From: Cytidiella melzeri
Lineage: Eukaryota; Basidiomycota; Agaricomycetes; Polyporales; Irpicaceae
Length of the DNA stretch: 64,000 nt
Direction of reading: 5' to 3'
Assembly (NCBI GenBank): GCA_022592445.1
Contig: JABYQR010000127.1
Location: forward strand, 48,167 to 112,166
Shown here in pieces: positions 1,441 to 52,469 of this stretch (position 1 is its first letter; every line of letters starts with the position of its first letter). The notes below the pieces were generated by a model that worked only from the letters and a program-made list of their open reading frames with translations, had not been told where the DNA came from and did not search any database. Both the position numbers and the translations under genes were made by a program.

Positions 1441-2397
1441 GCCAAGTACCAAGCAACGCAGCAGGCCCGTCTCGTGGAGATGTTGACTTCGACAATCACT
1501 CACGCATGTTGTTTGAATATTATTACAATACTACTCAACCTTGGTGCTTCATCAATGTTTAGGGCGCACACTATTGACATGATTACTCTGCGTATTTGCG
1601 AGCTACAAGATACAGGAATGCGCCTGCACCTCCGCGCCCGCTGCTGTAGATGTCACGCTATGCGCGACTGTCACACGCCGATTCAGAGATGTCACAAGCA
1701 GAGTCTGCGTAAGACGTCTTCCTCCTCATCGCATTGCAAGCCGCACTCCAACCTCAAGCATCTTACTGTGCCTGGCAACCCTGACCTGCTAGCAAACATG
1801 TTACACGCGAAAACCTTCCTGCTCTTGTCCGCATTGCAGATTGGTACGTACTGAAACATACAGCAGAAATGCTATATTGCCCACACGCGGCATCAATGTT
1901 GCTCTGCTGGATGAAATACACGAAGCATATAGCACGCTAAATGAGGCAGCCATCATTGATCAACCTTGCGAGGTGTACGTCTGATGCTTTACATGAGACA
2001 ATAATAGCGACGGGGCGCACAACACAAGTCCTGCGCATGTTCTGGCACGAGGAACCGGTGCTAGTGCCTTGTATTGCGTCGTCTTCAAACCGGAAACCGC
2101 AGTCCTTCACCAAAGCTTTCATTGGAAAGCCAGGTACAGCCTAAGCGAAATGCTGGACGGGCCTTCAATCGTGTGCGAAACTGTAGGTTTTCTGTAAACC
2201 ACAGCCACACTCAATTTCCGCCCTTCCGTGTCTCGCGACACTGCCTCTAGTGACGAGCTGCTGAGCAGGCCGCAAACATGCCCTAAGTATTGCTGTGTTT
2301 TGCTCTCAGACGTGTAGGATATGAGCTGATAAACTTGCAAGCATAGCCGCTGCATACAATTCCACCCTCAAACCTAACCACCCTTCGACCATATAGT
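1441..2397. other. Intergenic: duplicated upstream flank of the DUF6535 family
   Basis: No gene is recognised here. Bases 1520-1690 resemble 5560-5750 in front of the next DUF6535 gene, and 1720-1870 resemble 14700-14850, so this stretch is part of the duplicated family unit. The last 60 bases before the 2398 gene resemble those before the 20346 gene. Confidence 0.6.
1649..1674 (+). repeat. Conserved block upstream of DUF6535 gene A (copy 1)
   Basis: First of four near-identical 25-26 base blocks (TGTCACGC, two or three variable bases, then TGCGCGACTGTCA). It lies 723 bases before the start codon at 2398. It may be a regulatory site or merely a well-preserved remnant of the duplication. Confidence 0.6.
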
Positions 2398-7532: not shown

Positions 7533-10111
7533 ATGGCTCCTACCGAAGATACGAGTCAGCCCAGCCCAGGCGACCATCCAGCTTCAAAGGAAGAATACGA
7601 TGGTGTCCTTTCGGACGACATTAATACCAGTGCTTGGTCGGCCATGTCAAGCATTATTCACGAGGTAGATGAACGGAAGATCAAGGGCTATAAGGAAGAC
7701 ATAGATACGTTCTTGGTCTTCGTGCGCATTCCTTTAACGCATACATTTTATAGATTCTAAGTATTGGCTCACACAGGCAGGTCTATTCTCCGCAGTCTTA
7801 TCCGCGTTCCTCGTCGAGTCGTATCAAGGGCTTCAGCAGGACCCCATGGAAGTCATGGTTGCTCTGATGCAACAGGTCGCTCTACAAACCTACTCCTACT
7901 CTCTAAATGCTGGATTTTTGAACTCCACCGTGCCCCCCCTCTCTCAGCAGACTCTATTCGCGTTTCAGCCATCCGTGAATGCCGTTCGAGTCAACGTCCT
8001 CTGGTTTGCGAGCTTGACACTCAGTTTGATCAGCGCGTCGTTTGGCATCTTGGTCAAGCAGTGGCTCCGCGAGTATCTTGCAGGGGACTATACCTCGCCA
8101 CAGGCACGACTCCGCGTACGCCATTATCGCAATCCTGGTCTCGATAACTGGAAGGTGTTTGAGATAGCGGCTATTCTGCCCTTGCTACTGCAGCTATCTC
8201 TCGCCTTGTTTTTCATCGGGCTTTGCATCTTCACGGCCGACGTCCATAGCACTATAGGCCATACGACGTTACCACTCGTAGCTGCATGGGGATTCCTATT
8301 CGTTGCTTCCGCCATTGCCCCTGCCTTTTCGCCCCGCTGTCCATACAAGACCACTCTATTCAAATCCATTACAAGGATAATTTGGAAGCAGCAGCTATCA
8401 CTTGTACACTGCCTCAGGACAGCGTACAGTCGCTTGAATCTGGGATTGCGTGCGCCGAATACTAGGGCAGCTCGCCATAGTCCTGGGTCGCATGTTCAAA
8501 TTCTAATTCCCGGAAAGTGGCCATACGAGGACCCAGCCTACGACGAGGAAGTTGCTGCGAAGACCGACGTGAACGACCTCGATATTCTGCTTACAGTGGA
8601 CTCTATTCAGTCTGACGACGATCTCCTGCGAACGATGATGAATACTCTGCAGCAATCTCAAGTCGCCCGCACCGAGTACGTCAGATTTGCTCTAGCAATC
8701 ATCAGCCATCGGCTGCAAATTGATGTCATTCCTTCATCTGGGTTTCTCGACCTGCTGCGTCTACCGAGGCAAGTAGCATCGACTATCATGCCTCCGATTT
8801 CTGAGATCCTCCGTCGTGAGATCAACCGACAACTCCATGCGGGCGATATGAGAACTGTCGAGTGGCATGACTGGATGAAGGACTGTTTGTTCATTCTATT
8901 TGCCAAAACAAGCATAGCCATGCCTGCACAAGCAGACTTGCTCTTTTTGTCCCTCCTCACCGACCAGTCTCGCTGCACCACATTCTTCAACATGATCCAG
9001 ATCCGCGCTCCAGACGTAGATGCAGTTCCCCACATTCTCGAGAGACTGCAAGGAACACTCAATGCGATGAACGGTGGAGACGTGTTGCTCGTCTTGTACC
9101 ACCTCGTACAGGAATACTTCTCCCCAGAGAGCCCTGCGAATTATCAGACATTTCTTGATACACTGAAGAATTCGCAGAAAGTGCCCCTCGAAATTCTGCA
9201 ACTCTTCGTCGACACGCTAGTCATTAGGGTGGGAATTGAGCTCTCGGAACCGCGATGGGAGCCGTATATTTTGGCCAAGATATCTCTCATCATCGAACTT
9301 TCGTCCAAGATCAGCTGCCGAGACGGAGTTCTCAGCCTGTTCCAGACCCTTCTGAGCTGGAACAGTAATTTCACGGGTCTCGGAAGATACGCCATGGGGC
9401 TCAACAGAAGCACTGATTCGACCAGCCTGAAGGAAGGAGCGCAAAGTATGTTTATCGATGTGATACTGGCTGCTTCCCGTATTTCTGGTAAGTGGTACTG
9501 TGATATAACAATTTCAGTTGTTGGTTGAGACGTTTGGAGTTTTAGAGCTCCACAAAATCTTGGAAACCTTTTCGTATGTCCTTGACAACCAATGGAAACA
9601 GAATCCAGAACTGTTTGACACCACAGAATACTACCGTCAACAGCGGCTGGACCCTTTGAAGTCCTGCCTTATCCTCCTTCGTGCACTGCGCGCAATGCAA
9701 GAGCAGAGCTTATCAGTGGATGACCACGTGGTCCTCATACGTGATATATGTACAGCTATTGAATACGCACTTCCCCTCGTGGAAAGTCGGCGGATCCAGG
9801 GCCATCGAGATATGGCCAAAGACTGTCTCAAGCTCATCGACACCCTCGACTTCTCGCAGCGTCCACATGATTTGGACACGCTGGCTCACCGATCTTGGGC
9901 GCGAGACTTCCACGAGAGCGCGAGTCTCTTCCCGGACGCTCTGATTGAAGGGCTGAAGCTGTTCTTGGCTTCTGACGAGGACACCACGTTCAGTCATCGT
10001 CTTCGCCGACTTGCAATAGCTGAGGAAGATGACTCGACCTCCTTGTCATTCTTCTCAGCTCCCTTGTCGTCCTCCCCTACTCGGAGTGACACTCCTCCGC
10101 CTGGGTCCTAA
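7533..10111 (+). CDS. DUF6535 domain membrane protein, copy B
   Basis: Exons 7533-7721, 7777-9487 and 9546-10111 encode 821 residues with no interruption. It has the same N-terminal signature, four membrane segments and long helical C-terminal part as copy A, but a shorter tail ending PPPGS. The start codon lies only 49 bases after the right target duplication of the LINE, so its original upstream sequence, including the conserved block at 5713, has been displaced by 1.7 kb. The gene is intact despite this; whether it is still expressed cannot be told. Function unknown. Confidence 0.85.
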
Positions 10112-16803: not shown

Positions 16804-19539
16804 TGCCTCCTCCACAAGATACAAGTCAGCCGACGCCAAACAAACTCTCAAGGACGCATGATGATGCTACCTCAGACGATGTTATCACAAATGGTTGGTC
16901 AGATGTGTCCAAGATTACACACGAGGTATGTAGATGAACGGAAGATCAAGGACTACAAGGAGGATATCGATACGTTCCTGGTCTTCGTACGCTCCCCCTC
17001 TCACACATCCATTTAACAATGCCTAACTATTCTGTGCAGGCAGGTCTGTTCTCCGCGGTATTGACCGCGTTCCTCGTCGAGTCATATCAGGGTCTTCAGC
17101 AAGACCCGATGGAAGTCATGGTCGCCCTCATGCAGCAGGTCTTATCCAAATTACTCCTACTCTATGAATTCCGGGTTCTTGAACTCTACAGCATCCCCCT
17201 CTTTTCAGCCTCAAATCGCCTTCCAGCCATCCGTGAACGCCATTCGAGTCAACGTCCTTTGGTTCGCGAGCCTGACACTCGCTCTTATCAGTGCATCGTT
17301 CGGCATCTTAGTCAAGCAGTGGCTCCGCGAGTATCTTGCAGGAGACTACACTTCGCCACAGGCACGACTCCGTGTACGCCATTACCGCAATCCTGGCCTT
17401 GAAAAATGGGAGGTGTTTGAGATAGCGGCTATGCTGCCCTTGTTACTGCAGCTATCTCTCGCCTTGTTTTTCATCGGACTTTGCTTCTTCACGGCTGACA
17501 TACACAGCTCAGTTGGCCATACGACTCTGCCACTCGTAGCCGGGTGGGGATTTTTATTCATTTCTGCTGCTTTCGCCCCTGCCTTTTCGCCTCGCTGCCC
17601 ATACAAGACCACTCTGCTCAAATCTGTTACCAAGGCAATGTGGAAGCAGCATCTATCGCTCGTGCAGCGGCTTAGGACTGTCTACAGTCGCTTGAAGCTG
17701 GGACTGCGACTATCGAATACTAGAGAAGCTTTCCGTAGTCCTGCACCGCGCCCTCAACCTCTAGCTCCCGGCAAGTGGTCTTACGAAGACCTAGCCTACG
17801 ACGAGGAATATGCCGCGAAGACCGACAGACACGACCTCAGTATCCTGATCATAGTGGACTCTATTCAGTCAGACGATGATCTCATACGTTCGATGATGGA
17901 TACTCTCCAGCATTCTCGAGTTACGGGCACTGAGAACGTCAAATTTGCTCTGACCGTTATCAGCCATCGCCTGCAAGACCACATCGTGATTCCTGCGTCC
18001 GGATTTCTCGACCTGTTGCGTCTACCCAAGCAAACAGCCTCGACTATCATGTTTTCAATCGTCAAGATCCTTCGTAATGAGATAAAGCGACAACTCCTCG
18101 CGAGCGATCGCGTTGACTGGCATGATTGGATGCAGAATTGTTTGTCTCTACTATTTGCCAAGACGAACGCACCTATCCCTACGGAAGCCAACTTGCTCTT
18201 TCGTCCCTCCTCACTAACCAGTTTTGCCGCACGACTTTCTTCAACATTATCAAGATCCGCGCCTCAGACACGAATGCAGTTCCTCACATCCTCGAGACAC
18301 TGCAAGGAATGCTCGTCCTGATGGACGGCACAGATGCGTTGCTGGTTTTGTATCACCTCGTGCAGCAGTACTTTTCTCCAGAGAGTGCTATAACCTACGA
18401 AGCAGTTCTCGATACACTCAAAAATACGGCAAAAGTACCTCATGACTGTTTGCACCTCTTGGTCGATACTCTTGTCAGCTTGGTGGGGAAAGAGCTTTCT
18501 GAACCGAAATGGAGTTCATACACACTCGACAAATTAACCCTCATTATGGAACTATGGTTCAGGATCAGCCGCCGCGACGGAGTCCTCAACCTGTTCAAGT
18601 ACCTGCTGTCCACAAAGACATGTTTTGCAGGAACTAGTAATTATGCATTGGGACTCAAAGTAGACCCCGAGTCGAGCAATCTGAAGGAAGGAGCGCAGAG
18701 CATGTTCATTGATGTGATACTAGCTGCGTCCCCTAGCTCTGGTGCGTAGTACTGTGATCAGAATGCTGGTCATTGACTGAGAGGTGCCAATATCTAGAGC
18801 TCCCCACGATTCTTACAAATATCCGTGAGGTGCTCGAAGCCCAGTGGAAACAGCGGTCAGGACCCGAGCATCGCAGTGACTCGTTAAACGAAGGCCAGTG
18901 GCTAGACCCACTGAAGTCCTGCCATGTTCTCCTCCGGTTGCTGTGCGCAATGCGAGAGCATGGTTCACCAATCGACGACCACAGAGACCTGTTGCGGAAC
19001 ATATGGGGGGCTGTTTGTCAAGCGCTTCCAGTGGCGAGGAGGCATATTGGATGCCAGTCAGATATGGCGAAGGACTGTCTCAAGCTCATTAACTCTCTCG
19101 ATATCTCGCAGCCTCCGGACGGCGAAGACACGCCAGCTTACCACTCTTGGGTGCAAACCTTTGCCGAAAGCGCAAGTCTCTTCTCGGACACTCTCATCAA
19201 AGGGTTGATGTCGTTCTCAGCATGTGATGAGGACACCACCGTAGTCATCGCATTCGTCGACTTGCAATAATCGAGAAGGACGACTCGGCCTCCTCAACTA
19301 CTTGGAGGCCAATGTTGTAGCCACCACACGGCCAGAATACGTTGGTTTCCCTATCTGGTGCGCGAAAGCTGTTCGAGAGCACGACATCTCCGACCAAAGG
19401 GTTGATGCTGCCCTTGGTATCTGGCGGGAACTCAACAACCGGAAATTCTGTTCGCCAACATGCGATAGCTGGCGTGTATGACTCGAGTACGCTCTCCTCA
19501 ACTACTTGGAGTGATATTCTTCCGCCCGGACTCCCTTAG
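16804..19539 (+). pseudogene. DUF6535 gene copy C, multiply frameshifted
   Basis: The full three-exon layout is recognisable, but the frame is broken at least four times relative to the paralogues. There is a 4-base insertion after CACGAG near 16925 (GTATGTAGATG), a 2-base loss near 17150 in the MQQV region, a 1-base loss near 18200 and a 1-base loss near 19240. The family tail LPPGLP followed by a stop is still visible at 19522-19539. Long open stretches remain (17164-18200 and 18240-18748), so inactivation is fairly recent. Introns occupy the same positions as in the intact copies. Confidence 0.85.
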
Positions 19540-20345: not shown

Positions 20346-23112
20346 ATGCCCCCCAAAGATACAACTCAGCCGACGCCAGACGACCAATCAGGTTGCAGTG
20401 AGGAGCACTATGATGCTACCTCAGACAGTATTGAAAATTGGTCAAATATGTCAAGAATCATACACGGAGTGGATGAACGGAAGATTAAGGGCTACAAGGA
20501 GGATATCGATACATTTCTCGTCTTCGTGCGCTTTGTCTCTGATTCAGAATTCTCTGAAGGTCTAACAAGTTCGTGCAGACAGGTCTGTTCTCCGCGGTTC
20601 TAACCGCGTTTCTCGTCGAGTCGTATCAGGCCCTTCAGCAAAACCCGTCGCAAGTCATGATTGTTCTCATGCAACAGGTTGTCTCACAGACCTACTCCTA
20701 CTCTCTGAATGGCGGGTTCTTGAACTCCACCGCGTCCTCTTTCCCTCAGTCTCTACCCCCGTTTCAGCCGTCCGTGAACGCCAAGCGAGTCAACGTACTT
20801 TGGTTCGCGAGCTTGACCCTCGCTTTAATCAGTGCATCGTTTGGCATCTTAGTCAAGCAGTGGCTCCGCGAGTATCTCGCAGGGGATTACACTTCGCCAC
20901 AGGCACGACTCCGCGTACGTCATTATCGCAATCCAGGCCTCGCCGAATGGAAGGTGTTCGAGATAGCGGCTATGCTGCCTTTGCTACTGCAGCTATCTCT
21001 CGCCTTATTCTTCATCGGGCTGTGCATCTTCACGGCCGACGTACACAGCACCATAGGCCATACGACCTTACCGCTCGTAGCCGCGTGGGGATTCTTGTTC
21101 ATCGCTTCCGCCCTCGCCCCTGCCTTTTCGCCTCGCTGTCCATACAAGACCACTCTGCTCAAATCTGCCACAAAGGCGTTGTGGAAGCAGCATTTATCAC
21201 TCGTGCGGTGGATTACGACAGTGTACACTCGCTTGAATCTGGGACTGCGAGCACCGAATACTAGAGGAGCTTGCCAGAGTCCTGGATTGCAGACTCAACC
21301 TCTAGTTCCTGGCGAGTGGCCGCATGAAGGCTTAGCCTACGACGAGGAAGCTGCCGTGAAGACCGACGTTCACGACCTCGAGATTCTGGTCACAGTGGAC
21401 TCTATCCAGTCTGACGATGGTCTTCTACATACAATGATGGATACTGTGAAGCAATCTCAGGTCACCACCGAGTACGTCAAATTTGCTCTGGCGATCATCA
21501 GTCATCGCCTGCAAATCGACGTCATTCCTTCATCCGGGTTTCTCGACCTGCAGCGTCTACCCAAGCAAGCAACCTCGACTATCATGCTTCCTGTCGCTGA
21601 GGTCCTTCATCAAGAGGTCCAACGACAACTCCTCGCGGGAGACGGGAGACCCCTCCAATGGCATAGTTGGATGAAGGACTGTCTGTCTCTTCTATTTGCT
21701 AAGACGAACGCACCCATACCCCCGCAAGCTAGCTTGTGCTTTTCGTCCCTCCTTACTGCTCAGTCTCGCCGCACGACTTTCTTCGATACCATTAAGATTC
21801 GTGCTGCCGACGTGGATGCCGTTCCTCACATCCTCGAACGACTGCAAGGAACGCTCGTTCTGATGAAAGACAGAGATGCGTTGGATGTCTTGTATCACCT
21901 TATGCAGCAGTACTTCTGCCCAGAGAAACCTCCAACCTCGATATCAGTTTTTGATACACTGAAAGATGCGGCGAAAGTCCCTCCCGACTGTTTGCAACTT
22001 TTGGTCGATACCCTTGTCAGTTTGGTGGGGAAGGACCTTGTGGAATTTGCATCTGAGGACTGCTGGCATCTTCACACACTTGAGGAAGTAGCCCTCATCA
22101 TACAACTGTGGCCCAAGATTAGCAGACGCGACGGAGTCCTCAGCCTGTTCAAGAAAATGCTGTCAACGAGGACTATGTTTGCGCTCCCTGGAAGTTACGC
22201 AATGGGACTCTACAGACCGACCACTAGTTCGACTAGTCTGGAGGAAGTAACTAGTCTGGAGGAAGTAGCGGAAAACATGTTTATCGATGTAGTATTAGCT
22301 GCGTCCCATAGTTCTGGTGAGCGTGTTACTGTCTTGCAAAAATGTCAGCCATTGATTCAAGTATCTTGAATGTAGAGCTCAATACCATTTTTCAAAGCTT
22401 ACTTGCTGCACTCAAATTCCAATGGGAAGAGTGTCCGGAAGCGGACGATAACCGCCTTGATACGCTACTACGGCTAGACCCTCTGAGGTCCTGCCACATG
22501 CTTCTCCGCTCACTGAGCGCCATGCGACAGCAGAAGGTACCAATTGACGGCCACGTAGACCTTGTACGTGGCATAACAAAGGATGTTGGCGACCTGCTTC
22601 CCCTCGTGGTGAGTAAGCAGTTAGAAGGCCATTCAGACATAGCCAAGGACTGTCTCAAACTCATCGACTCTCTCGACATCTCAGAGCCTCCAGACGACCA
22701 GGACTCGCCGGCTTACCTCTCTTGGGCGAGAGACTTCCCCGAGCGCACGAGTCTCTTCCCGGACACTGTGATCCAAAGGCTGAAGCTGTTTCTGGCATCT
22801 GATGAGGACATTACATTCAGTCATCGCGTTCGCCGACTTGCGATAGTTGGAGAGCCGGCTGAGGAGGATGGGTCGTCCTCTCCAGATGGAAGTGTCAACA
22901 CGTGGCTTCCAGACGTCCAGGAAATGCAGTATCACTTCTCTGAGGAGCAAGACGTCCTCGAGAGCGCGAGTTCCTCCCAGCACGCTCCAGAGGAAAGGAC
23001 AACGTCTCCGAGGAACTCCGTTCACGGACTTCAAGTTGAGGTGATTGAGGAGGACGGCTCGTCCTCTGTAACAAGTGCTCGGAGTGACACTCTTCCGCCT
23101 GGATTCCCTTAG
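20346..23112 (+). CDS. DUF6535 domain membrane protein, copy D
   Basis: Exons 20346-20525, 20579-22316 and 22376-23112 give 884 residues, intact. Same architecture as copy A: an N-terminal YKEDIDTFLVF region, four membrane segments ending with AFSPRCPYKTTL, then a long helical C-terminal half with the conserved DPLRSCHMLLRSLSAM and SWARDFPE segments. A short in-frame repeat (TSLEEV twice) lies just before the second intron. Its C-terminal 40 residues and the downstream 250 bases are nearly the same as in copy A, so A and D are sister copies. The convergent vWA gene starts its 3' end 443 bases further on. Function unknown. Confidence 0.85.
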
Positions 23113-23554: not shown

Positions 23555-24850
23555 TCAGCGCCGATGTCGCTGGTGCTGCTGCCTATCGATTTTCCTATTT
23601 ATAGCCCCCAGAAGAATCTTGATCAACGTCGCGCCGTCCAACTCGCCCCCAGAGTAAGGAACGGTGTCGACGATATCCCGTGGGGGTCTGTTCCCGCTCT
23701 CAGACCACGGCGCTCTCAAGTCGTTGTCCAGCTCTTGCAAGAACGCCGTCGCCTCCTTGTCGTTTCCGACCTGGATGAACTGGATTCCTGACTGTGTGAA
23801 CGCGAAAGAACTGAGCATGCTGTTTGATGTGGGGATCTGGACTCGTATTCTTACCTGGTCAAGGGGGTAGCCGTTCTGATCTAGGTACTGGGCGTGCCTC
23901 TGTATAGCAATTTTCAGAGCGACTTTGTCAGCTACACACGAAGACAAGATGAGCTTCAATGATTCACGTGCGCTGTGAAGAAAAGAGAAAAGCGCGGAAC
24001 GTACTAGCTGCGCCGTCCGTGATGATCAGGAGGTTCAACTTCTTGTCGAAGCCCTTCTCCAGGTTAAACTGGTATTTTTGCAGCAAGTCTTCCACTCGTT
24101 TGCCCGTGGGCGTCGCGAGATGGCTGTTCCTAATGGACTTGCAAGCTTTCTCTACTTCTGCCTCGCGCTAGGATCCTCATGAGTGACAATCCTCAATTGC
24201 ACGACAAGAAAGTCACTGACCGTGAGGTTATAAGCCTCGCTGAACTTGTGACAGTCGTTGATGAACAAAAGATCTATTCCGTTGGAATCATACTCCATGG
24301 CCTTCTGCGCCAACTGGCCAACAGCTTGTGTCGCCTGCGACAGGCTCGATAGTTGAGTTCCGAGTACTTGATTGACAATATATCGTCGTGCACTCACCAC
24401 TTCCCAACGTGTTCTGCGAGAGAGTATGCCCTGTGCTTTTGTCCACATTGACCCAGAGTCATCGAGAAGGATGACTGTGTTGTATTTCCGAAGAGAGTTC
24501 AGTGCATCTTCGGAGCGGCTGAGCGTGGCCTGATCTGGCTGAGACGCTGCAGCCCAAGTACTAGGTCCAGCGATCCCGTGAGACTGCTCTATATTTAGAT
24601 CACTCTTGCTGTCCACCACTGGAGAGCCCTTTCCTTCGCCCTTTTCAGCGGGAAACGAGCCATCGTCGGAAGTGCTAGAACTACGTTTTTCGTAAGGAGG
24701 AGGGGGATCCGTAGATGCGTCGGCAGACGTTGAAGCGACAGCCCCTGGGATAGATCCACGGCTGCGACGGAAGGGATTGAGGGAGGAGCGCATTTGCGAA
24801 GCTGAGTGTAGGATGAGAGGGTGAGTGCAAAGAGTGTGAAAGGTCCTCAT
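23555..24850 (-). CDS. von Willebrand factor A (vWA) domain protein
   Basis: Five exons (24850-24398, 24334-24221, 24167-24005, 23931-23855, 23791-23555) give 347 residues with all phases closing. A start at 24793 (MRSSLNPF) would give 328. A Ser/Pro-rich N-terminus precedes a vWA domain from about residue 122. The metal-ion-dependent adhesion site DxSxS is intact (DDSGSM, residues 130-135), with LLFIND, LLIITDGAATD and GIQFIQVGND as later core strands. Such proteins are widespread in basidiomycetes as cytosolic vWA proteins of unknown role. It is convergent with DUF6535 copy D, and a dead copy exists at 15465-15935. The first intron is 63 bases, in frame and stop-free, so retention would only add 21 residues. 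Confidence 0.82.
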
Positions 24851-26645
24851 ATCCCCGTACCAGCTTTATATGAGAGGATATGACCCTAATCTCAGATATG
24901 TGGTAAGGAGGAGGCCTTGGCATCTAAGCGCTGTACTGCCAAGTACACAGCAACAACAATGTGTTTACTGCCACACGACGTCGACTCCCAAAATCAGCAC
25001 TGCCAGATAATGTCACCTGTGAGTGTGTGATCGCCAAAGCCGGACTTCACAATGAAAGGTTACTGAGGGGGACACCATGCATGGATCTTTCTGCAAGTGC
25101 TCATGATTGGCGAAGGTCGGAGCGGGCTCGACCTGCACTGGTATAGCCCAGTCGACGCTGGCTGAAACGAAACCGATGACCTTACGAAGGACAATAATCG
25201 TTGTAATGGCATATTGGGCCTGACGTATTACTCTCGACAACACGCCTGCAACGATATGGTTTATGTGGGCTGGCAATGAACAACGTACGGATGGCACAAA
25301 TGACAAGGCAGTGGACATTCGATATTCCTGGTGGCCAATGCGATGCAGCAACACGAAGAGTCGTCATGCCTCAAGACGTACCTTGCCGTACCTTTCAATT
25401 ACACTGCCTGTCCACCTTGCACCGCTGTAGTGATCGCATAAACCGGTGTAGATTGAGAGACAGGTCATGGCGGAGTGGTTCTGAGCCAGCACTGAGGGCG
25501 GTAGAGAGCATTAGGTTATCGTATTGCAGGAGCACGACGAGGCCGACGAAGGAGTGTCAAAAGTTGCTGGTCGCGGTCGCGCAGAGAGCGCCGAGGGAGA
25601 CGGCGGGCGCAATCGGCATTCGGTAGAGGTCCGGTGATGCCGGCAACTGGCCGGCCACCAGTACTTGGATCTTACGCTTTGAGTCTTTGACGTCCTTTAA
25701 ATCTTACAGTCACAGTATACGCATGCACTGTTACACAGTCGTTTTTACGACGCAAACACATCTGAGCTATTAGTCTCTACGAGATGGTTGAACAGGTACG
25801 GGCCTTCGAGTTCAGTAACTTCGATCAAGGCTACTCGCTACTCACAAGCGGTGCAACATGATGTCTCTACCAGACACTATGGGAGCTACCATGCAGAATG
25901 CGTGGCGTAAGAGATGCAGTTCGTCCTATCCCTCGAAGGCGCTTGAACGGATCTGAGCAACCTACTATTCGCGAGCGAGGAATCCGTTTCACCTTGTGTT
26001 CGCCACCGTCTGCCCGTGACGAGATGTCATGACTCTCAACTGCAAGTCGTTCAAAAACGGTGTGGCTGCTGGTGCATTGATGTATCAAAGCTGATAGGAT
26101 CCAGAATGATGAATATCACCGCGAGAGGCAACGCAGACTTTTGCCAAGCCCTCACAAACTGGACAGCTTGACAGGGTGAGTGCGGTGCCTTTTGTTTTCA
26201 TGCGAGAATAATCACCGATGCCGCATGCGTAGTCAGCGTTGTCGGTAGACACTGACAACCAACGATGTCACCAATCACACAATTTGAACGGCTGTTTACT
26301 TCGTCATTGACAGCTAGCGTCGCGCTCGAATCCATTCATGACGCTCACTAGGGCAGTACGAGAGTTGGCAGATCCGCAAGTGAAGTGAACGTGAAAGTGG
26401 CCAATTTCCAGGTCAGAGACTATCATACGAACCCTCCGCTTACAGCAATTGAGTGACTCAGGATTCTGTAGAAGATCCAAGTTATGCACAGCCGCCGAGA
26501 CGGTACGTCGAGCGCTGCATATTGTGTATCATAGAAACTTACGGTGACATCGGTTGCAGCTTACTCCGAGTTTGGCGAGACGTCGGCGCATTCGTGAAAC
26601 CAGAAACGAAGGCTTCAGTGGAGCGCCGTCCAAGTTGCTGCACAG
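24851..26645. other. 1.8-kb intergenic region, no gene seen
   Basis: Short frames on both strands show no family signature. This separates the vWA gene from the promoter of the repeat-peptide gene. Confidence 0.5.
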
Positions 26646-26651
26646 TATAAG
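26646..26651 (+). promoter_or_regulatory. TATA box of repeat-peptide gene 1
   Basis: GTATAAGA context, matched by the same element at 29180 in front of the paralogue. Both are followed by CAGCTCTGAGAG about 32-40 bases later, a likely start-site region. Confidence 0.6.
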
Positions 26652-26735
26652 AAGTATGCGTTGTCCACCGAAAAACCTCAGCTCTGAGAGTTCCTCAATT
26701 CGTTCTTACCTTCGCACTCAAATCAGCACCGGTTG

Positions 26736-26794
26736 GTGAGTAGAGCAGCGAACTCCTCCGCGAGAAGCCACACAGTGCTAACACTCTCATCTAG
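26736..26794 (+). other. 5' UTR intron of repeat-peptide gene 1
   Basis: GTGAGTAGAG donor after CCGGTTG, a GCTAAC branch-like site and a CTAG acceptor; 59 bases. The paralogue has a 59-base intron at the same place with the same donor context. Confidence 0.7.
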
Positions 26795-26883
26795 CTGGAT
26801 TTTATATTCGCATTTCACGACACCGTACTCTACATCACCTTCCTTACGACAAGCCTTCGCACCATCTTCATCTTCTAGTCAAG

Positions 26884-27852
26884 ATGCGCTCTTCCTCTGC
26901 TGTCTTTATCCTCGCTGTCACTGCCGCTGCGACCCCGGCTTTCGCTGCTCCCCTTTCCACTTCCCCATACGCTCGCCGCCAGGATACGTCCACTGACGCA
27001 GACAGTGATGCCATCTCACTCAAAACCCTCGGCACCATCTTCTCCGTCGGTGCTCCTGTCGTCGGTGGCATCTTCGACCACTTCTTCAAAGGCAATAGCA
27101 GCCAGCGCCGCGAGTACGAAGAGATCCTAGCTCGCCAGGCCACGGACGTCGACTCCAGCGAGGCTATTTCACTGAAGACCCTCGGCACAATCTTTTCAGT
27201 CGGTGCTCCTATTGTCGGTGGCATTTTCGACCACTTCTTCAAGGGCAATAGTAGCCAGCGCCGCGAGTTCGACGAGATCTTCACTCGTCAAGCCACTGAC
27301 GATGACTTGAGCGATGCCATCTCACTCAAAACCTTGGGTCCCATTTTCTCCGTTGGTGCTCCTATTATAGGTGGCATCTTCGACCACTTCTTCAAGAGCA
27401 ATAGTAGCCAGCGCCGCGAATACGAGGAGATCTTTGCTCGCCAAACCACCGACATGAGCCAGAGCGATGCTATCAAGCTTGGTACACTCGGCACGATATT
27501 CTCCCTCGGCGTACCGATTATCGGTGGCATTTTCGATCACTTCAAGGGAAATAGCAGCCAGAGGCGCGAGTACGACGAAGATATCTTTGCTCGCCAAACT
27601 ACCGACGTTGATACGAGCGACGCGATTTCGCTCAGCACCCTCGGTACTATCTTCTCCGTCGGTGCACCTATCGTCGGTGGCATCTTTGATCATTTCTTTA
27701 AGGGCAATAGCAGCCAGCGTCGGGAGCTTGAGGAGCTGATGGCTCGTTCTGACGACATGGACAGCGGGGCGCTGCTGACTTCCATCATTTCTTCCATTCC
27801 CGTCAGCGTGCTGCAGCACAGCTTGAAAGGCGGCTTGAACTCACTTGACTAA
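26884..27852 (+). CDS. Secreted five-repeat peptide precursor 1 (Kex2-type processing)
   Basis: The protein is 322 residues in a single coding exon. A signal peptide (about 1-21, cleaved after TPAFA) is followed by APLSTSPYARR, a short propeptide ending in a dibasic site. Five repeats of about 51 residues begin at residues 43, 94, 145, 196 and 247. Each has an acidic lead-in (D/S/T), then AISLKTLGTIFSVGAP, then a hydrophobic IVGGIFDHFF segment, then KGNSSQRR. RR pairs fall at 31-32, 75-76, 126-127, 177-178, 227-228 and 279-280. A single R before Q falls at 84, 135, 186 and 237, where a new repeat starts. Cleavage would release near-identical peptides of about 44 residues, each able to start with pyroglutamate, and discard eight-residue acidic spacers such as EYEEILAR. 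The architecture is that of Kex2-processed repeat proteins; the family is unknown to me. Confidence 0.85.
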   Translation: MRSSSAVFILAVTAAATPAFAAPLSTSPYARRQDTSTDADSDAISLKTLGTIFSVGAPVVGGIFDHFFKGNSSQRREYEEILARQATDVDSSEAISLKTLGTIFSVGAPIVGGIFDHFFKGNSSQRREFDEIFTRQATDDDLSDAISLKTLGPIFSVGAPIIGGIFDHFFKSNSSQRREYEEIFARQTTDMSQSDAIKLGTLGTIFSLGVPIIGGIFDHFKGNSSQRREYDEDIFARQTTDVDTSDAISLSTLGTIFSVGAPIVGGIFDHFFKGNSSQRRELEELMARSDDMDSGALLTSIISSIPVSVLQHSLKGGLNSLD

Positions 27853-29179
27853 ACGACTGTTTTTATGACTGTTGATGGCATGATTAGGGACTTGTTGGTA
27901 TAATCTGTGTAGTACTCTCTTAATATTGCGAATGCGATGGTAGAACTCTTGGGCTCATGACTGACGGGCAACCCAAGCTGCCCAAGCTGGAGGATTAAGA
28001 CAAGGGAACTACATACATAATGGACGTTCGACCAACGAGATTTGCAGTCCGCGGAAGATTATGTGATCGCGTGCGGTCGAGGACCACCAGACCACTGTTC
28101 CCCGCGCAGAGTTTGTTTTTGTCCCGACGGGCGCGCTGTATCCAAGTAAAATCCCACACACACACACGCAAGTGTAGATAATAGCTTAGCTACGTTTTTG
28201 TGCTAGCTGATTATTTTTTAGGGACGGTACATTCACGGGGAGGGCCCATCAACCAATGGGACTGCAAATCTCAGTACATTAAAGGCTTGAGTCCGTCCGT
28301 GCGGCCCGATGAGGCCGACGCCTTGGTGGCGCCATCTCATGTACCACCACCTTATTCGCCATCACACGGCTCACCGAAGCGGTCTACACAACGAAGCGGT
28401 CTACACAGTAGAGAGATGCTCAGAGGTATTTTTCTCTCTCCAAGATACACACCGAAATCCAGGGGGGGGGGGGGGGGGCGGTGTGAATGTCGAGCGAACG
28501 TGAGTTGGCTCACATCATCAAAGGCATAGCCTATCCTAACCCGCGTGCACTTTTGCGCTGTGCTATTGATATGTGACAGAACACACACGTCTACCTCTGG
28601 CATCAGTAAACGACTTTGCAGTGCACGGTGCATACGACGGGCTTACCGACGAATCAACCCTGAACGCTTCGCTGATTGCAGTTATGAGGTGAGCCAACGC
28701 TCATGAAGGTCATGCAGCCAGGTTATGTTAGCCAGGTTTTCGCCGGCCATGCTGTAGCAAGTCTGTCGGGCGATAGGTCGATAGGCTTGACCTGCATGAG
28801 CCGACTTGGAGCTTGAATGTTTGAACTTGTGCTCGCAGGTCAATCGGTGATTCCACAGCAAACTTTGAAAACCAACATGCCGTTACATCACGCAAGTGAT
28901 CATTACAGCAGTAAGCCTATCGTTACAATATGTCCGTGATTCTCATTGCATGTGAGGAGGCTACGCGGAGAGTCGAACACTCCTTGTGGTACCTCACAAT
29001 CCTGCAGACAATACATCGCGTGGCGCGCACTGTTACCATAGGGAGCTTCGCAGATGGTGACCTCGACATCACAACTCGCTACAGCTTTACCATACACCTA
29101 AGCATTCGTTCTGATGACGGCCATGCACGGCATCGCAGCCAAGACTTCAATATTGTAATCTATTGGCATTATTGCACGG
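27853..29179. other. Spacer between the two repeat-peptide genes
   Basis: 1.3 kb without a gene. A block ATTGCGAATGC.ATGGTAGAAC at about 27925, 72 bases after the stop, recurs 71 bases after the stop of gene 2 and is probably a shared 3' UTR element. A short CA run lies near 28147. Confidence 0.5.
28462..28478 (+). repeat. Homopolymer of 17 G
   Basis: Uninterrupted G17. Such runs are prone to slippage and to sequencing error, so its exact length is doubtful. Confidence 0.9.
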
Positions 29180-29185
29180 TATAAG
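29180..29185 (+). promoter_or_regulatory. TATA box of repeat-peptide gene 2
   Basis: CGGTATAAGAGAG, matching the element at 26646 in sequence and in distance to the downstream shared CAGCTCTGAGAG. Confidence 0.6.
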
Positions 29186-29260
29186 AGAGGCAATTGGTCC
29201 ACCCGAATACCCCAGCTCTGAGAGTCCCCTTTGTTCATCCTCATCGCACGGCACCGGTTG

Positions 29261-29319
29261 GTGAGTACAGCAGTTAGCTTTCTTGCGAGACACTACACAG
29301 TGCTGACTGGTTTTGCTAG
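29261..29319 (+). other. 5' UTR intron of repeat-peptide gene 2
   Basis: CCGGTTG/GTGAGTACAG donor and GCTAG acceptor, 59 bases, equivalent to 26736-26794. Confidence 0.7.
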
Positions 29320-29411
29320 CTTAATTTGTTTCATCCGCGCCTTACAAAACATCGTTCTACACTCCCTTCTTTCCACCAACACTATCCATCATCTCCTCAT
29401 CTTCATTCAAT

Positions 29412-30470
29412 ATGCGATCCGCCTCTGCTGTCCTTGTGCTCGCTGCTGCCCCGGCTTTCGCTGCTCCTCTTCTCACTTCATCCAACGCTCGCCGTCAGGA
29501 TGCCCCCACAAGCACTGACGCGGAAAGTGATGCTATCTCACTCAGTACCGTTGGCACCATCGCCTCTTTTGCCGTACCAGTCATCAGTGAAATTGCCGAT
29601 CACTTCTTCGGAGGCAGCAGCCACCAACGCCGCGAGTTCAACGAGGATCTCGTACGCGATGAGCTCAAGAAAATCTTGGGCCGCCAAGACACCGCCGAAG
29701 TCGATTCGAGCGACGCTATCTCGCTGAGCACGATCAGCGACATCGGTTCCATCGCCTCCGTCGCCATACCTGTTATCAGCGAAATTGCTGGCCACTTCTT
29801 TGGGGGCAGCAGTCATCAACGTCGCCGTGACTTTGAGGATGTCCTACGCGAGGAGCTCCACAAATTATTCGGTCGTCAGGACTCCGTCGACACCGACGCA
29901 AGCGGCGCCATCTCACTGAGCACCATCGGGACCATCGCCTCCTTTGCCGCACCAGTTATCGGCGAAATTGCTGATCACTTCTTCGGACGCCGCAGCGATA
30001 TCGAGGATCACGAACGCGTTGAGCTCCAGAAAATCTATGGTCGCCAGGATACCGACGACGCCGACGCAAGCGACGCTATCTCACTGAGCACCATCGGGAC
30101 CATCGCCTCCTTCGCCGCACCAGTTATCAGCGAAATCGCTGTTCACTTCTTCGGGGGCAACAGTAACCGACGCCGCAGCGATATCGAGGATCTCGTACGC
30201 GACGAGCTCAAGAAGATTTCCGGTCGCCAGGACACCGCCGACGCCGACGCAAGCGACGCTATTTCACTGAGCACCATCGGCACCATCGCCTCCTTTGCCG
30301 TACCAGTGCTGAGCGAAGTTGCAGATCACTTCTTTGGGGGCGACAGCAAACAACGCCGCGAGCTTGAAGAACTGTTGGCCCGTTTCGACGATTCGAACGA
30401 CGCCCTTCACGGGTTCGAGCACGGTGTGGGTGCTCGCGAGTTCGGGGACAGTTTGGATGCTCTCGACTGA
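29412..30470 (+). CDS. Secreted five-repeat peptide precursor 2 (Kex2-type processing)
   Basis: 352 residues, a tandem paralogue of the 26884 gene. The signal peptide (about 1-17) and NARRQ propeptide end are conserved. Five repeats have their DAIS cores at residues 40, 101, 165, 221 and 282: AISLSTIGTIASFAAP, then PVISEIADHFFGG, then RR or RRR (73-74, 137-139, 193-194, 253-255, 315-316). The spacers are longer than in gene 1 (for example EFNEDLVRDELKKILGR) and always end GR before QD, so released peptides would again begin with Gln. The hydrophobic core differs from gene 1 (ASFAxPVISEIA versus FSVGAPIVGGIF), while repeats within each gene stay alike, which indicates concerted evolution. Secreted; role unknown. 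Confidence 0.85.
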   Translation: MRSASAVLVLAAAPAFAAPLLTSSNARRQDAPTSTDAESDAISLSTVGTIASFAVPVISEIADHFFGGSSHQRREFNEDLVRDELKKILGRQDTAEVDSSDAISLSTISDIGSIASVAIPVISEIAGHFFGGSSHQRRRDFEDVLREELHKLFGRQDSVDTDASGAISLSTIGTIASFAAPVIGEIADHFFGRRSDIEDHERVELQKIYGRQDTDDADASDAISLSTIGTIASFAAPVISEIAVHFFGGNSNRRRSDIEDLVRDELKKISGRQDTADADASDAISLSTIGTIASFAVPVLSEVADHFFGGDSKQRRELEELLARFDDSNDALHGFEHGVGAREFGDSLDALD

Positions 30471-38889: not shown

Positions 38890-41607
38890 CTAAGGGAGTC
38901 CGGGCGGAAGAGCCTCACTTTCCTTGACTATCTCTACTTGAAGTCGGCGAACACGATTCCTCAAAAGCGTTATCCTGTCCTCCAGAGGGTCCCCAGAAAG
39001 TCCCGAGCTCTCGAGGAGGGCCTGCGCCCGAGAGAGTTGTGCCAGCATGTCCTGTGGGTTCAAAGGCCGCGAGATGTTTCTCCGAATAGCTGAGAGGGAC
39101 GACTGAGAGTCGTACTCAATTATCGCAAGCCGCCGTACGCGATGACTGAACGTCGTCGCGTCCTCGTCAGACGCCAAAAACAGCATCAACCTTTCGATCA
39201 GAGTGTCTGGGAAGAGACTCGTTCTCTCCGCGAAATTCTGCGCCCAAGAGGTGTAAGCAGGCGTATCGTGGTCGTCTGGAGGTTGCGAGATGTCGAGAGA
39301 GTCAACGAGCTTCAGACAGTCCTTCGCTATCTCTGCATGGCCTTGGATATGCCTACCCGAGACGAGTGGAAGCGCTTTGTCGACAGCACTCCATATGCGA
39401 TGTATAAGGTCCGCGTGGTCGTCAATCTGTAGTCCCTGCGCTCGCATTGCGCTCAGTGAGCGGAGGAGCATATGGCATGACTTGAGAGGGTCTAGCCGTA
39501 TTGACTTACTTCTGGAGTCGTCGCTCGCCTCCAGATGCCATTTCCATTGATATTCAAGCGCCCAAATAAAGCTCTCCAAAATCTTGCGGAGCTCTACAAC
39601 TCGAATTGTCTCAACCAATGGCTGACAACGTTCAATAACAGTAGGGCTCACCAGAGCCACGAGACGCAGCTAGTATCACATTGATGAAAACCTTTTGCGC
39701 TCCTTCCTTCAGACTACTCGAGTCAACGCCTCTGTTGAGTCCCATGGCGAACATGCTGAGGGCCGTGAATAGCCTTTTGCTGCTCAGCATGCTCTGAAAA
39801 ACGCCAGGGACTCTGTCGAGGCGGTTGGTCTGTGACCAAAGCTCGATGATGAGGATTATCTTGTCACCTGTGAACAAGCTCCAAACCGGGTCCGGAAGTT
39901 CTTTTTCCACCAAGATGACAAGGGTATCGACGAAGAATTGCAGATATTCGGGGGGTACCTTTGCCGGATTCTTCAGTGTTTCGAGAAATGCTTGAAAGTT
40001 GAGACTGCTCTCCGGGGAGAAGTACTGCTGCACGAGGTGATACAAGACGAGTAACGAAGCTTCGCTGTCCATCAGCACGAGCGTTCCCTGTAGTCTCTCG
40101 AGGATGTGAGGAACAGCGTCCATGTCTCCAGCACGAAGCTTGAGCACGTCGAAGAAGGTCTTGCGACGAGACTCGTCGGTGAGGAGGGACGAAAAGAGCA
40201 CGTGAGCTTGTGTAGGAATGGACGTGTTCGTCCTGGCAAAAAGAAGAGACAGACAATCCTTCATCCAATCATGCCATTCGATGGGTCTGAGGTCGCCCGC
40301 GAGGAGTTGTGGCTTGATCTCATCACGAAGGATCTCAGCAATCGGAACCATGATAGTCAAGGCCGCTTGCTTAGGTAGACGCAGCAAGTCCAAGAATCCG
40401 GATGAAGGAATAGTGATGTTGTCGTCTTGCATTCGATGTCCGATGATCGCCAGAGCGAACTTGACGTACTCGGTGCGGGCAACTTGAGATTGCTGCAGAG
40501 TCGCCATCATCGTACGCAGGAGATCATCGTCTGACTGGATGGAGTCCACTGTGATGAGGATATCGAGGTCGTTATTGTCGGTCTTGGCGGCTACTTCCTC
40601 GTCGTAGGCTGGGTCTTCGTACGGCCACTTGCCGGGTATCGGGAGTTCAGTCTGCGATCCACGACTGTGACAAGCTCCCGTAGCGTGCGGCGCTCGCAGA
40701 CCTCGATTCAAGCGACCGAACGCTGTCCTAAGCCACCGCACGAGTGACAGATGTTGCTTCCGCACCGCCTTCATAACATATTTGAGCAGTGTGGTCTTGT
40801 ATGGACAGCGGGGCGAAAAGGCAGGGGCGAAAGCGGCAGAAATGAATAGAAATCCCCATCCAGCTACGAGCGGTAAGGTTGTATGGCCTACGGTGGTGTG
40901 TACGCCGGCTGTGAAGAAGCATAGCCCGATGAAGAACAGTGCAAGAGCTAGCTGCAGTAGCAAGGGTAACATAGCTGCTATCTCAAACACCTTCCAGTTG
41001 TCGAGGCCTGGATTACGGTAATGGCGCACACGGAGTCGTGCCTGGGGCGAAGTGTAGTCTCCAGCAAGGTACTCACGAAGCCACTGCTTGACTAAAATGC
41101 CGAACGATGCGCTGATTAAGGTGAGTGTCAAGCTCGCGAACCAGAGTATGTTCACTCGGACGGCGTACAAGGACGGCTGGAATGCAAGGAGAGGTTGGGA
41201 GAGGGGGGGCGCGGTGGAATTCAAGAGCCCGGCGTTCAGAGAGTAGGAGTAGGTTTGTATAACGACCTGTTGCATAAGAGCAATCATGACCTGCGAGGGG
41301 TCTTGCTGAAGACCCTGATATGACTCGACGAGGAACGCGGTCAAGACCGCGGAGAATAGACCTGCCTGCACAGACTAGTTAGGCCTTGTTGAATGTATGC
41401 GTGAGAGGGGGAGCGTACAAAGACCAGGAACGTATCGATATCCTCCTTGTAGCCCTTGATTTTCCGTTCGTCCACCTCGTGTATGATGCCGGACATCGTT
41501 GACCAAGCATTGGTGGCAAAGTTGTCTGAGATAACACCATCTTGTTTCTCGTTGGGAGCTGAAAGATCGTCTGGCCTCGTCTGGCTTGTATCTTTGGTAG
41601 GAAGCAT
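38890..41607 (-). CDS. DUF6535 domain membrane protein, copy E
   Basis: Exons 41607-41419, 41365-39652 and 39593-38890 give 868 residues, intact, on the opposite strand and 15 kb from the other copies. It shares intron phases, the YKEDIDTFLVF/AGLFSAVLTAF junction, four membrane segments, the SFGILVKQWLREYLAGDYTSPQ core (two adjoining motifs) and the tail ending LPPGLP. The C-terminal 100 residues contain a Leu/Arg-rich helix (LLRNRVRRLQVEIV). The upstream conserved block of the other copies is not seen in the 200 bases before the start. Function unknown. Confidence 0.85.
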
Positions 41608-51029: not shown

Positions 51030-52469
51030 ATGGTCGAGACCAATGGCCCCCCCGCGGGCATCGGCGGCAACTCTGTTCAATATCTCCAAGATTTTTCCGC
51101 GCGCCGATCTCTGGGCGCTGTTGAGAACGAAAACCTAAATAGGTTTATTAGGAACGAGGAACGAGCGGAGAGACGCGGTACGGGAGAGGACAATGTATCG
51201 GACAACGAGTCGTTCCTATTAGATGAGTCGCGAGTTGGTAGCCCTGCGCCCTCTCTTCAGTCAAGCAGTCCAGCGCATACACCCGGAGAAAAGGGAAAAT
51301 CTAGGGGAAATCAGACTCCGTCGCCTGTTAAGTCACTCACGCAAAACCTTCTGAATAATCTTACCCCCACGTCTCTCCAGCGGACCTTGGACTGGATGAC
51401 GAAGAAGCTCAAGGTCGGACCGAGCTCCTCTGCGGCTGCAAGCGCGGGCTCGAGTTCGAAGTCAGCTTCGAAATCGGCTTCGAGGGATGCGCCCCGTCCC
51501 GCTCAGGAGGACGGTCTTCATATCGAATTGGAGGATGGCGGCGATTTCTTTACAGAAGAAGTTGAGGCTCCGCAAGCCTTGCTCACGCTTCTCAAGCTCC
51601 GGTACCACCTGCCACTCTCTCTTTGCACGACCGCCGCAATCCAAGAGATGCACGATAACCCTAGGTGCCTCAAGTATGCGAAGGTCCACGATTTTTCGGG
51701 AGAAAAGAAGGAGGTAGTCGACGTCTCGCTCTGGCCGGACAAGAAGAGCTTGACTCCCGAACAGTGGAAGGACGCATATAGGAACTATCTCGCGCTTCTG
51801 GATTGTTTCAACAACCCACTGATCAAGGCCCTTTTCCAAAAGCACTTCGACCACCTCTCGAATCGGCGCGAGTTCTTGGGTGCCTACCCGGCCATCCTTC
51901 GCTTCGACTACGAAATCCGCTACCACTTCTGGGTGGTGAAGCGCGCCTTGTTCGTCGTTGGAGAGGGCGAGTACCGTGAGCGATTCAAGGCCGTTTGTAT
52001 GAGCGAGTTGTGGAATCAGCTGGAGAGCAGCTCTAAGAAACGGTTCGCAAGCTCGGATGCCTACCAACCTGGTCTGTCGCGTTCGAAGGCCCAGAGCAGC
52101 CACTCTCGAGATAGCTTTCGCCCGCAGGCCGAGGACTCTAGCAGGTCTCGCGATGGTGGAAAGTCCTTTCCGAGCGGCAGTCAGAGACAGGCCAACTCTT
52201 ACTGCGTCATCTGCGGCCAAAGTGGTACCGCTTCGCATCACGCGTCAAGATGTAGCAGGACGAGACTCCCGAACGGCAAGGCTACGCACTGCATCTGGTA
52301 TGACAACCAGCTCCTCACTGCAACGGGGCGCAAGGCTGTTTGCCTCATGTGGAACATCTCGGGTCGCTCTCCCTGCAACGGGAAGTACTGTGGAGGGAAT
52401 GCCTCCCATATCTGCTCCTTCTGTGGTGCCTCCAGTCATCACAGCGGTAGTAAGCAATGCATCCTCTGA
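51030..52469 (+). CDS. Retrotransposon gag-like protein
   Basis: 479 residues from the ATG at 51030. The N-terminal third is polar with SSSKSASKSASRD; the middle (about 190-340) is helical with DVSLWPDKKSLTPEQWKDAY and FRFDYEIRYHFWVVKR-like segments seen in DIRS gag proteins. The C-terminus holds a Cys/His cluster (YCVICGQSG..SHHASRC, and HICSFCGASSHHSGSKQC) likely to bind zinc and RNA. It overlaps the RT ORF by 71 bases in another frame, so RT is made by reinitiation or frameshifting. Confidence 0.75.
   Translation: MVETNGPPAGIGGNSVQYLQDFSARRSLGAVENENLNRFIRNEERAERRGTGEDNVSDNESFLLDESRVGSPAPSLQSSSPAHTPGEKGKSRGNQTPSPVKSLTQNLLNNLTPTSLQRTLDWMTKKLKVGPSSSAAASAGSSSKSASKSASRDAPRPAQEDGLHIELEDGGDFFTEEVEAPQALLTLLKLRYHLPLSLCTTAAIQEMHDNPRCLKYAKVHDFSGEKKEVVDVSLWPDKKSLTPEQWKDAYRNYLALLDCFNNPLIKALFQKHFDHLSNRREFLGAYPAILRFDYEIRYHFWVVKRALFVVGEGEYRERFKAVCMSELWNQLESSSKKRFASSDAYQPGLSRSKAQSSHSRDSFRPQAEDSSRSRDGGKSFPSGSQRQANSYCVICGQSGTASHHASRCSRTRLPNGKATHCIWYDNQLLTATGRKAVCLMWNISGRSPCNGKYCGGNASHICSFCGASSHHSGSKQCIL

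Follow-up and report, generated by a model that had tools for sequence, protein, structure and literature searches.

In Ustilago maydis, Rep1 and Hum3 carry many amphipathic repeats of 31-55 aa, mostly separated by Kex2 sites, and Kex2 cuts Rep1 into ten amphipathic 35-53-aa peptides and a longer one of 228 aa, with surface-active, amyloid-like fibrils as the outcome (PMC4617103). In Candida, the Ece1 precursor has seven KR motifs, and the toxin candidalysin, one of eight peptides, is amphipathic and helical and is freed by Kex2 and Kex1 (PMC12153327). Kex2-processed repeat proteins (KEPs) were found in 1345 of 1461 fungal strains surveyed (PMC7329392), and their functions are largely unknown (PMC9769878). 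Here we describe two tandem genes, gene 1 and gene 2, in a 64,000-nt stretch of the genome of Cytidiella melzeri, of the Irpicaceae in the Polyporales (the window; contig C32, positions 48167-112166, in a genome of 49.7 Mb). On balance, we lean towards the view that both encode secreted precursors from which units of ~40 residues are cut by a Kex2-type protease and act as surface- or membrane-active amphipathic helices. The units, their boundary motifs, the low ratio of nonsynonymous to synonymous change (dN/dS) in their cores and a family-wide helical periodicity can be seen in the sequences.

A sequence-only reading of the locus had claimed two tandem genes on the plan of the Ustilago repellent or Candida Ece1. 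Both open reading frames (ORFs) are present as claimed, at 26884-27852 and 29412-30470, and a multi-copy precursor of Rep1/Ece1-like plan is supported. The features of the two genes are as follows.

26884..27852, + strand: gene 1 precursor, 322 aa, a single unbroken reading frame (from the sequence)
26884..26949, + strand: gene 1 signal-peptide-like segment, aa 1-22 (by inspection)
26950..26979, + strand: gene 1 pro-segment PLSTSPYARR, dibasic at its end (site reading)
26980..27105, + strand: gene 1 peptide unit 1, 42 aa, followed by RR (sites and alignment)
27106..27135, + strand: gene 1 spacer RREYEEILAR, a Phi-x-A-R site with Ile at P4 (sites)
27136..27258, + strand: gene 1 peptide unit 2, 41 aa (sites and alignment)
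27289..27411, + strand: gene 1 peptide unit 3, 41 aa (sites and alignment)
27442..27561, + strand: gene 1 peptide unit 4, 40 aa (sites and alignment)
27595..27717, + strand: gene 1 peptide unit 5, 41 aa (sites and alignment)
27748..27849, + strand: gene 1 C-terminal tail with a degenerate sixth head, DDMDSGALLTSII..., and the C-terminus LNSLD (from the sequence)
29412..30470, + strand: gene 2 precursor, 352 aa, a single unbroken reading frame (from the sequence)
29412..29465, + strand: gene 2 signal-peptide-like segment, aa 1-18 (by inspection)
29466..29495, + strand: gene 2 pro-segment PLLTSSNARR (site reading)
29496..29627, + strand: gene 2 peptide unit 1, 44 aa (sites and alignment)
29628..29684, + strand: gene 2 spacer 1, RREFNEDLVRDELKKILGR, with a Phi-x-G-R site at its end and an inner DLVR with Asp at P4 (sites)
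29685..29819, + strand: gene 2 peptide unit 2, 45 aa, with a 3-residue insert (sites and alignment)
29877..29987, + strand: gene 2 peptide unit 3, 37 aa, with an early RR (sites and alignment)
30045..30167, + strand: gene 2 peptide unit 4, 41 aa (sites and alignment)
30228..30353, + strand: gene 2 peptide unit 5, 42 aa (sites and alignment)
30384..30467, + strand: gene 2 C-terminal tail, SLDALD at its end (from the sequence)

By inspection, the precursors start like secreted proteins, with a basic N-terminus, a hydrophobic stretch and an AFAA-P junction. The propeptide said to end in ARR does so in both genes (YARR in gene 1, NARR in gene 2), and the five internal repeats per gene are bounded as described, by R-Q on the left and RR on the right in 10/10 units (RRR in two). 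The Kex2-type spacing likewise holds, with ARR (two units) or Phi-x-x-R (eight units) on the left. Tandem Repeats Finder reports arrays of 153 nt x 4.7 in gene 1 (27007-27726, score 781) and 183 nt x 4.6 in gene 2 (29525-30360, score 843); in unit 3 of gene 2, the early RR costs the unit its usual tail. Two parts of the earlier description went too far. The repeats had been called near-identical, but in gene 1 the aligned units share 75-90% of their residues with unit 2. They had been given a basic tail; there is one Lys in the gene 1 tails and none in four of the five gene 2 tails, and the units are net negative (−1.2 to −6.1 at pH 7 in the nine window units measured, with a computed mass of ~3.7-4.5 kDa). 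A run of 17 G lies between the genes at 28462-28478.

Three database searches and the fungus's own genome gave 42 relatives. The gene 1 search returned 7 proteins, profile A1 23 and profile A4 21, in overlapping sets, and the breadth of the family is a lower bound because the protein searches scored the 7,993-7,994 candidates that shared most words. The working set thus has 44 proteins, including genes 1 and 2, intact own-genome precursors on contigs C162 and C1, some fragments and one near-identical pair (P0020/P0021); P0001 (gene 1 itself) and P0003 (a model on a broken copy on contig C656) were left out of all family counts. Sources were assigned for 23 of the 44: Cytidiella (4), Phanerochaete sordida (4), Phanerochaete carnosa (1), Hermanssonia centrifuga (1), Irpex rosettiformis (5), Irpex lacteus (1), Antrodiella citrinella (6; Polyporales, Steccherinaceae) and Cristinia sonorae (1; Agaricales). 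The genera Phanerochaete, Hermanssonia and Irpex belong to the phlebioid polypores and decay wood.

In the frame common to the members, a Phi-x-A-R site lies upstream of an acidic head that contains S-[GDE]-A; a core of high variability follows, then a polar tail that mostly ends in RR or KR, and S-[LI]-N-x-L-D is frequent at the C-terminus of the protein. An S-[GDEA]-A acidic head occurs in 190 of 211 protease-site-defined segments, whereas 200 shuffles averaged 8.1 and never exceeded 16, a count that describes the family and is not independent proof, because the set was selected by homology. The C-terminal motif ends 27 of the 44 proteins, and by our reading the gene model ends at, or reads into, a likely intron in ~10 of the 17 that lack it. 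A search of the genome for the C-terminal tag gave six sites, against none for the reversed pattern, and two of the six are family members. The other four are secreted-looking genes that end in R-S-I-N-D-L-D-stop (C47:73963, C112:379531, C182:58593 and C212:178973). The tag is thus not family-specific, and may direct sorting in the secretory pathway of Cytidiella melzeri.

The core had been called unrecognised, and in the literature searched we also found no description of it. The family as a whole has none that we could find in the open-licence literature, supplementary tables lying outside that scope, and members may sit unnamed in published KEP lists. Searches with head and C-terminal strings gave chance matches only (a sensor paper and Neurospora HAM-5), a sequence search of the PDB gave nothing beyond two matches at E 0.7 and 0.91, and the KEP-type passages of PMC6339444 and PMC7329392 hold no such family.

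The boundaries of the units suggest a cleavage code with two kinds of site. From 247 heads in the 44 proteins, 11 were dropped (2 short, 9 without a following Arg) and 236 units were kept, of which 209 have a single Arg upstream, 25 a dibasic site and 2 lie too close to the N-terminus. P4 is Leu, Ile or Val in 185 of the 209 single-Arg boundaries, compared with 113 of 281 other single Arg in the same proteins, and P2 is Ala in 176 of 209. This P4 bias matches the preference of Kex2, which according to a review of its sites favours Leu or another aliphatic residue at P4 and Lys, with much variation, at P2 (PMC8528282). In the window, P4 is Ile or Leu in all eight units that follow a single Arg, and the other two units follow ARR. 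The gene 2 spacers also contain four internal single Arg (DLVR twice, DVLR and DHER), all with Asp at P4, which would be poor Kex2 sites. The left boundary is the extended Kex2 motif Phi-x-x-R and not a bare Arg. Downstream, 160 units end at a dibasic site (RR 91, KR 69) and 76 at a single Arg, and 107 of the 236 units begin with Gln. The genome contains one match to the Kex2-type P_proprotein domain, over 57 of 86 model positions.

This code has precedents. Effectors with an LxxR Kex2 pro-domain use the same extended site, although there a single pro-domain is removed and here most units are framed by it (PMC8528282). Coprinopsis KEPs expressed in Pichia pastoris gave products consistent with cutting after single Arg, and mass spectrometry has detected KEP peptides and pyroglutamate both in Agaricomycetes and in P. 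pastoris (PMC9769878).

The heads and sites also bear on two identities that we rejected. Two relatives, P0008 and P0014, carry EF-hand names in the database, as if the heads bound calcium; in 42/236 units the head D-x-D-E-S-G-A-L agrees with the first eight positions of the loop, PF21875 matches two of eight members (best E 1.3e-12) and is over its cut-off in P0012, and EF-hand_7 matches one of eight. However, the acidic residue at loop position 12 is present in only 6/236 units, EF-hand_7 is under its cut-off in P0008 and P0012, and EF-hand_1 is under it in P0008, so that we regard calcium-binding heads as very improbable. A dikaritin-type ribosomally synthesised and post-translationally modified peptide was rejected as well. 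A core Tyr for cyclisation is a feature of that class; none of the ten window units contains Tyr or Cys, and none of the at least eight genome matches to UstYa/DUF3328 (PF11807) lies on contig C32. The product is thus likely to be linear.

The cores, variable as they are, share a helical period. Of 202 distinct cores, 142 have a hydrophobic moment at 100 degrees above the 95th percentile of shuffled sequences, as do 28 of the 42 representatives obtained by clustering at 50% identity; all ten window cores lie at a percentile of at least 0.96. A scan of angles over the 42 representatives peaks at 100 degrees (mean z 2.10) and is negative at 170-180 degrees; no beta period was found in the cores (170 degrees; median percentile 0.32, 1/202 above 0.95). 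Among control tiles from 11 neighbouring ORFs, 14/190 exceed the 95th percentile, and hydrophobic tiles do so in 0/21. The helical period is the property that survives core divergence. AlphaFold places a single helix over residues 13-37 of a 41-mer, with a predicted local distance difference test score (pLDDT) of just 58.5, and models the precursor as repeated helix pairs, one pair per unit (pLDDT 50.1, predicted template modelling score 0.35); both models are too poor to be the basis of a fold search.

With these properties in hand, the locus can be set beside the known systems. The window units fall in the Rep1 range of amphipathic 35-53-aa Kex2 peptides, being 37-45 aa long, amphipathic by periodicity and of predicted release. 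Rep1, however, forms amyloid-like fibrils, and here we find a helical period and mostly Phi-x-A-R upstream sites; the two are likened by description, not by sequence (PMC4617103). Candida Ece1 shares the Kex2/Kex1 polyprotein plan and an amphipathic helical product, here a predicted one. In contrast to Ece1, all units here look like products, and whereas candidalysin is KR-bounded, the window units have a helical period between RR and Phi-x-x-R; this comparison, too, is by description (PMC12153327). The KEPs of Agaricomycetes are alike in their signal-peptide-like start, internal repeats, Kex2 sites between repeats and many N-terminal Gln (PMC6339444, PMC7329392, PMC9769878). Detected KEP peptides, as far as those sources go, are of 6-20 aa, whereas the family described here has predicted long amphipathic helices (median 42 aa), in which the acidic S-[GDE]-A head is fixed and the cores are swapped.

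From signal peptide, cleavage and capping to helix formation and activity, the steps of a working model are predicted. A Kex2-type protease would cut at RR and at Phi-x-(A/G)-R, Kex1 would trim the units, and the N-terminal Gln would probably be capped as pyroglutamate. The constant acidic head (D-x-S-[GDE]-A), the spacers and the frequent C-terminal S-[LI]-N-x-L-D tag would carry exchangeable cores, and acidic head and acidic spacer together may silence the hydrophobic core before cleavage. Our best guess at the place of action is an interface outside the hypha (air-water, wood or another organism's membrane), not an internal receptor, with the target left between the fungus's own hyphal surface and its competitors. 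In Coprinopsis, six KEP-gene knockouts had no axenic phenotype (PMC9769878).

Several points weigh against cut-out, surface- or membrane-active helices. The peptides are predicted from sequence. P4 is not Leu, Ile or Val at 24 of the 209 single-Arg upstream boundaries, and it is one of these at just 7 of the 76 single-Arg downstream boundaries (others read, for example, QQQSR or QQQAR), so that release at those downstream ends is unexplained by the code, and some of them may be false boundaries. Both structure models are of low confidence, so that helix formation is predicted from periodicity; soluble helical proteins show a 100-degree period likewise. The units are related, their counts are not independent, and the clustered test lessens this without removing it. 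The window peptides are net negative, unlike cationic lytic peptides. Finally, the whole gene 1 precursor scores over curated Pfam cut-offs for DUF4112, DUF4064 and PHAX_RNA-bd, and DUF4064 is over its cut-off in P0011 and P0013, though not in P0008 and P0012.

These last matches would suit a structural repeat protein that stays uncut in the cell wall and bears its basic sites on exposed loops. Such a protein would also agree with the paired helices of the precursor model and with cleavage being predicted from motifs rather than seen by proteomics. Yet that model is weak, most units in the 44 proteins have a cleavage-type motif at their upstream boundary, and the Pfam signal does not hold for single units: matches at E up to 1 cover 13 families in gene 1 and four in gene 2, but 0/4 single units match any model. 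A two-unit stretch reaches 19.8 bits against DUF4064 (cut-off 32.1) in an alignment that runs across the spacer. DUF4064 is precomputed for 9 of 24 listed family proteins, gene 1 included, and matches three of eight members of A4; we tentatively read the match, which vanishes on single units, as a resemblance of Gly-rich hydrophobic helices summed over repeats and not as membership. We give the structural protein little credence.

The gene pair seems to be a simple version of a broader mosaic family, whose members exchange the core and keep the head, the spacers and often the C-terminus constant. The precursor on contig C1 has five short units (for example SGAFSFGSFLKGLAGIVL before KR) and then three long ones. 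Its gene (2312-3672, minus strand) has three introns, all in phase 2 and at an identical place in successive long units, so that exons correspond to repeat modules; models of several relatives break at a matching place (for example HNIFGG and HNLFGGYV), as an intron there would explain. Precursors with at least three units contain on average 3.0 core clusters (50% identity), with one in gene 1 and up to seven in P0025, figures that are upper estimates because greedy clustering splits some core types (clusters 4, 6 and 21 are all DHF-like). Across the 44 precursors, the predicted peptides are poor in Met (12/9534) and Tyr (15/9534) relative to the precursor remainder (77 and 38 of 5064), owing in part to spacers that often carry Met or Tyr, and Trp is not depleted (31/9534 and 8/5064). 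The rarity of Met and Tyr is possibly an adaptation to oxidative wood decay.

We also asked how the repeats came to be alike. They had been described as more alike within a gene than between genes, and homogenised separately. The first part stands: core nucleotide identity is 81% within genes and 66% between them, a contrast reached by only 2 of 252 groupings, the true split and its mirror. The second is not supported for gene 1. Over 27 core codons, the repeats of gene 1 differ among themselves at synonymous sites with a pS of 0.61 and those of gene 2 with one of 0.42, and comparisons between the genes give 0.63; because the value within gene 1 is about that between genes, we rejected recent homogenisation of gene 1. 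Core dN/dS is 0.073 within gene 1 (dS 1.27), 0.133 within gene 2 (dS 0.62) and 0.212 between the genes (dS 1.40), and the gene 1 spacers vary more at the protein level (dN 0.22, dS 0.86). The gene 1 repeats thus look like old copies held alike by protein-level selection, with recent gene conversion unneeded, whereas in gene 2 such conversion may have contributed in part. The genes themselves are flanked by matching blocks.

26726..26802, + strand: 5' leader block of gene 1, GTGAGT...CTAG, 71% identical to the gene 2 block
29251..29327, + strand: matching 5' leader block of gene 2, of the same repeat family

The leader block looks like an intron of the 5' untranslated region. That the 5' leader and 3' flank blocks are alike in both genes suggests duplication of a whole transcription unit.

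Window positions 23590-27837 have a segmental copy on contig C656 (89-97% nucleotide identity) in which the reading frame of the gene 1 copy is broken, and gene 2 had no copy among the matches longer than 150 nt in the 50 kb compared. Dispersed DUF6535 genes lie around the peptide genes (2606-4417, 17068-18318, 20561-22366 and 39635-41374), in stretches that also match C656. Towards the right end of the window (52006-54402 and 62279-63850), a weak reverse transcriptase match below its cut-off and a Tf2-type integrase ORF hint at mobile elements.

Selection and core turnover bear on what the peptides might do. If cut out as in Rep1, they could self-assemble into water-repelling fibrils that coat the hyphal wall. 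The plan and size match Rep1 (PMC4617103), and the conservation of gene 1 at high dS suits a bulk product. However, the cores lack the beta period, and they diversify inside single precursors, unlike a bulk coat, which makes a repellent-like coat rather unlikely. A narrower form of the membrane-active reading is a permeabilising cocktail aimed at competitors, whether bacteria, fungi or animals grazing the mycelium. Core turnover within and between species, with the seven clusters of P0025 as its extreme, speaks for it, as do the helical amphipathicity of the cores and the precedent of candidalysin, an amphipathic helix from Ece1 (PMC12153327). Against it are the anionic charge of the window peptides and the inactivity of synthetic Coprinopsis KEP peptides on the bacterial strains tried (PMC9769878), and we consider the cocktail possible though doubtful. 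Finally, the units might be signals, like ascomycete alpha-factors or other KEPs, since pheromones are among the KEPs (PMC6339444). The XA/XP trimming motif is no family feature, however: it follows the Kex2 site once in 39/236 units and twice in a row in 6/236, on which we rejected an STE13-type pheromone. Core turnover also speaks against a single receptor, and signalling seems improbable to us.

Returning to secreted precursors of amphipathic helices, we tentatively extend this view to the mosaic family, as a possibility that we hold less firmly. The family may be a modular peptide-delivery platform of wood-decay polypores, in which dissimilar amphipathic helices are swapped into a constant frame of acidic D-x-S-G-A head, Phi-x-A-R and RR sites and C-terminal S-L-N-E-L-D tag. 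Each species would have a cocktail of its own, low in oxidisable Met and Tyr, which would suit a peroxidase-rich milieu. The family offers a chemical theme (an amphipathic helix under a constant head), a testable two-site cleavage code and mass targets. If the mosaic reading is true, wood-decay fungi would run a changing arsenal or surfactant set that is now listed as 'hypothetical protein' or, twice, as EF-hand protein.

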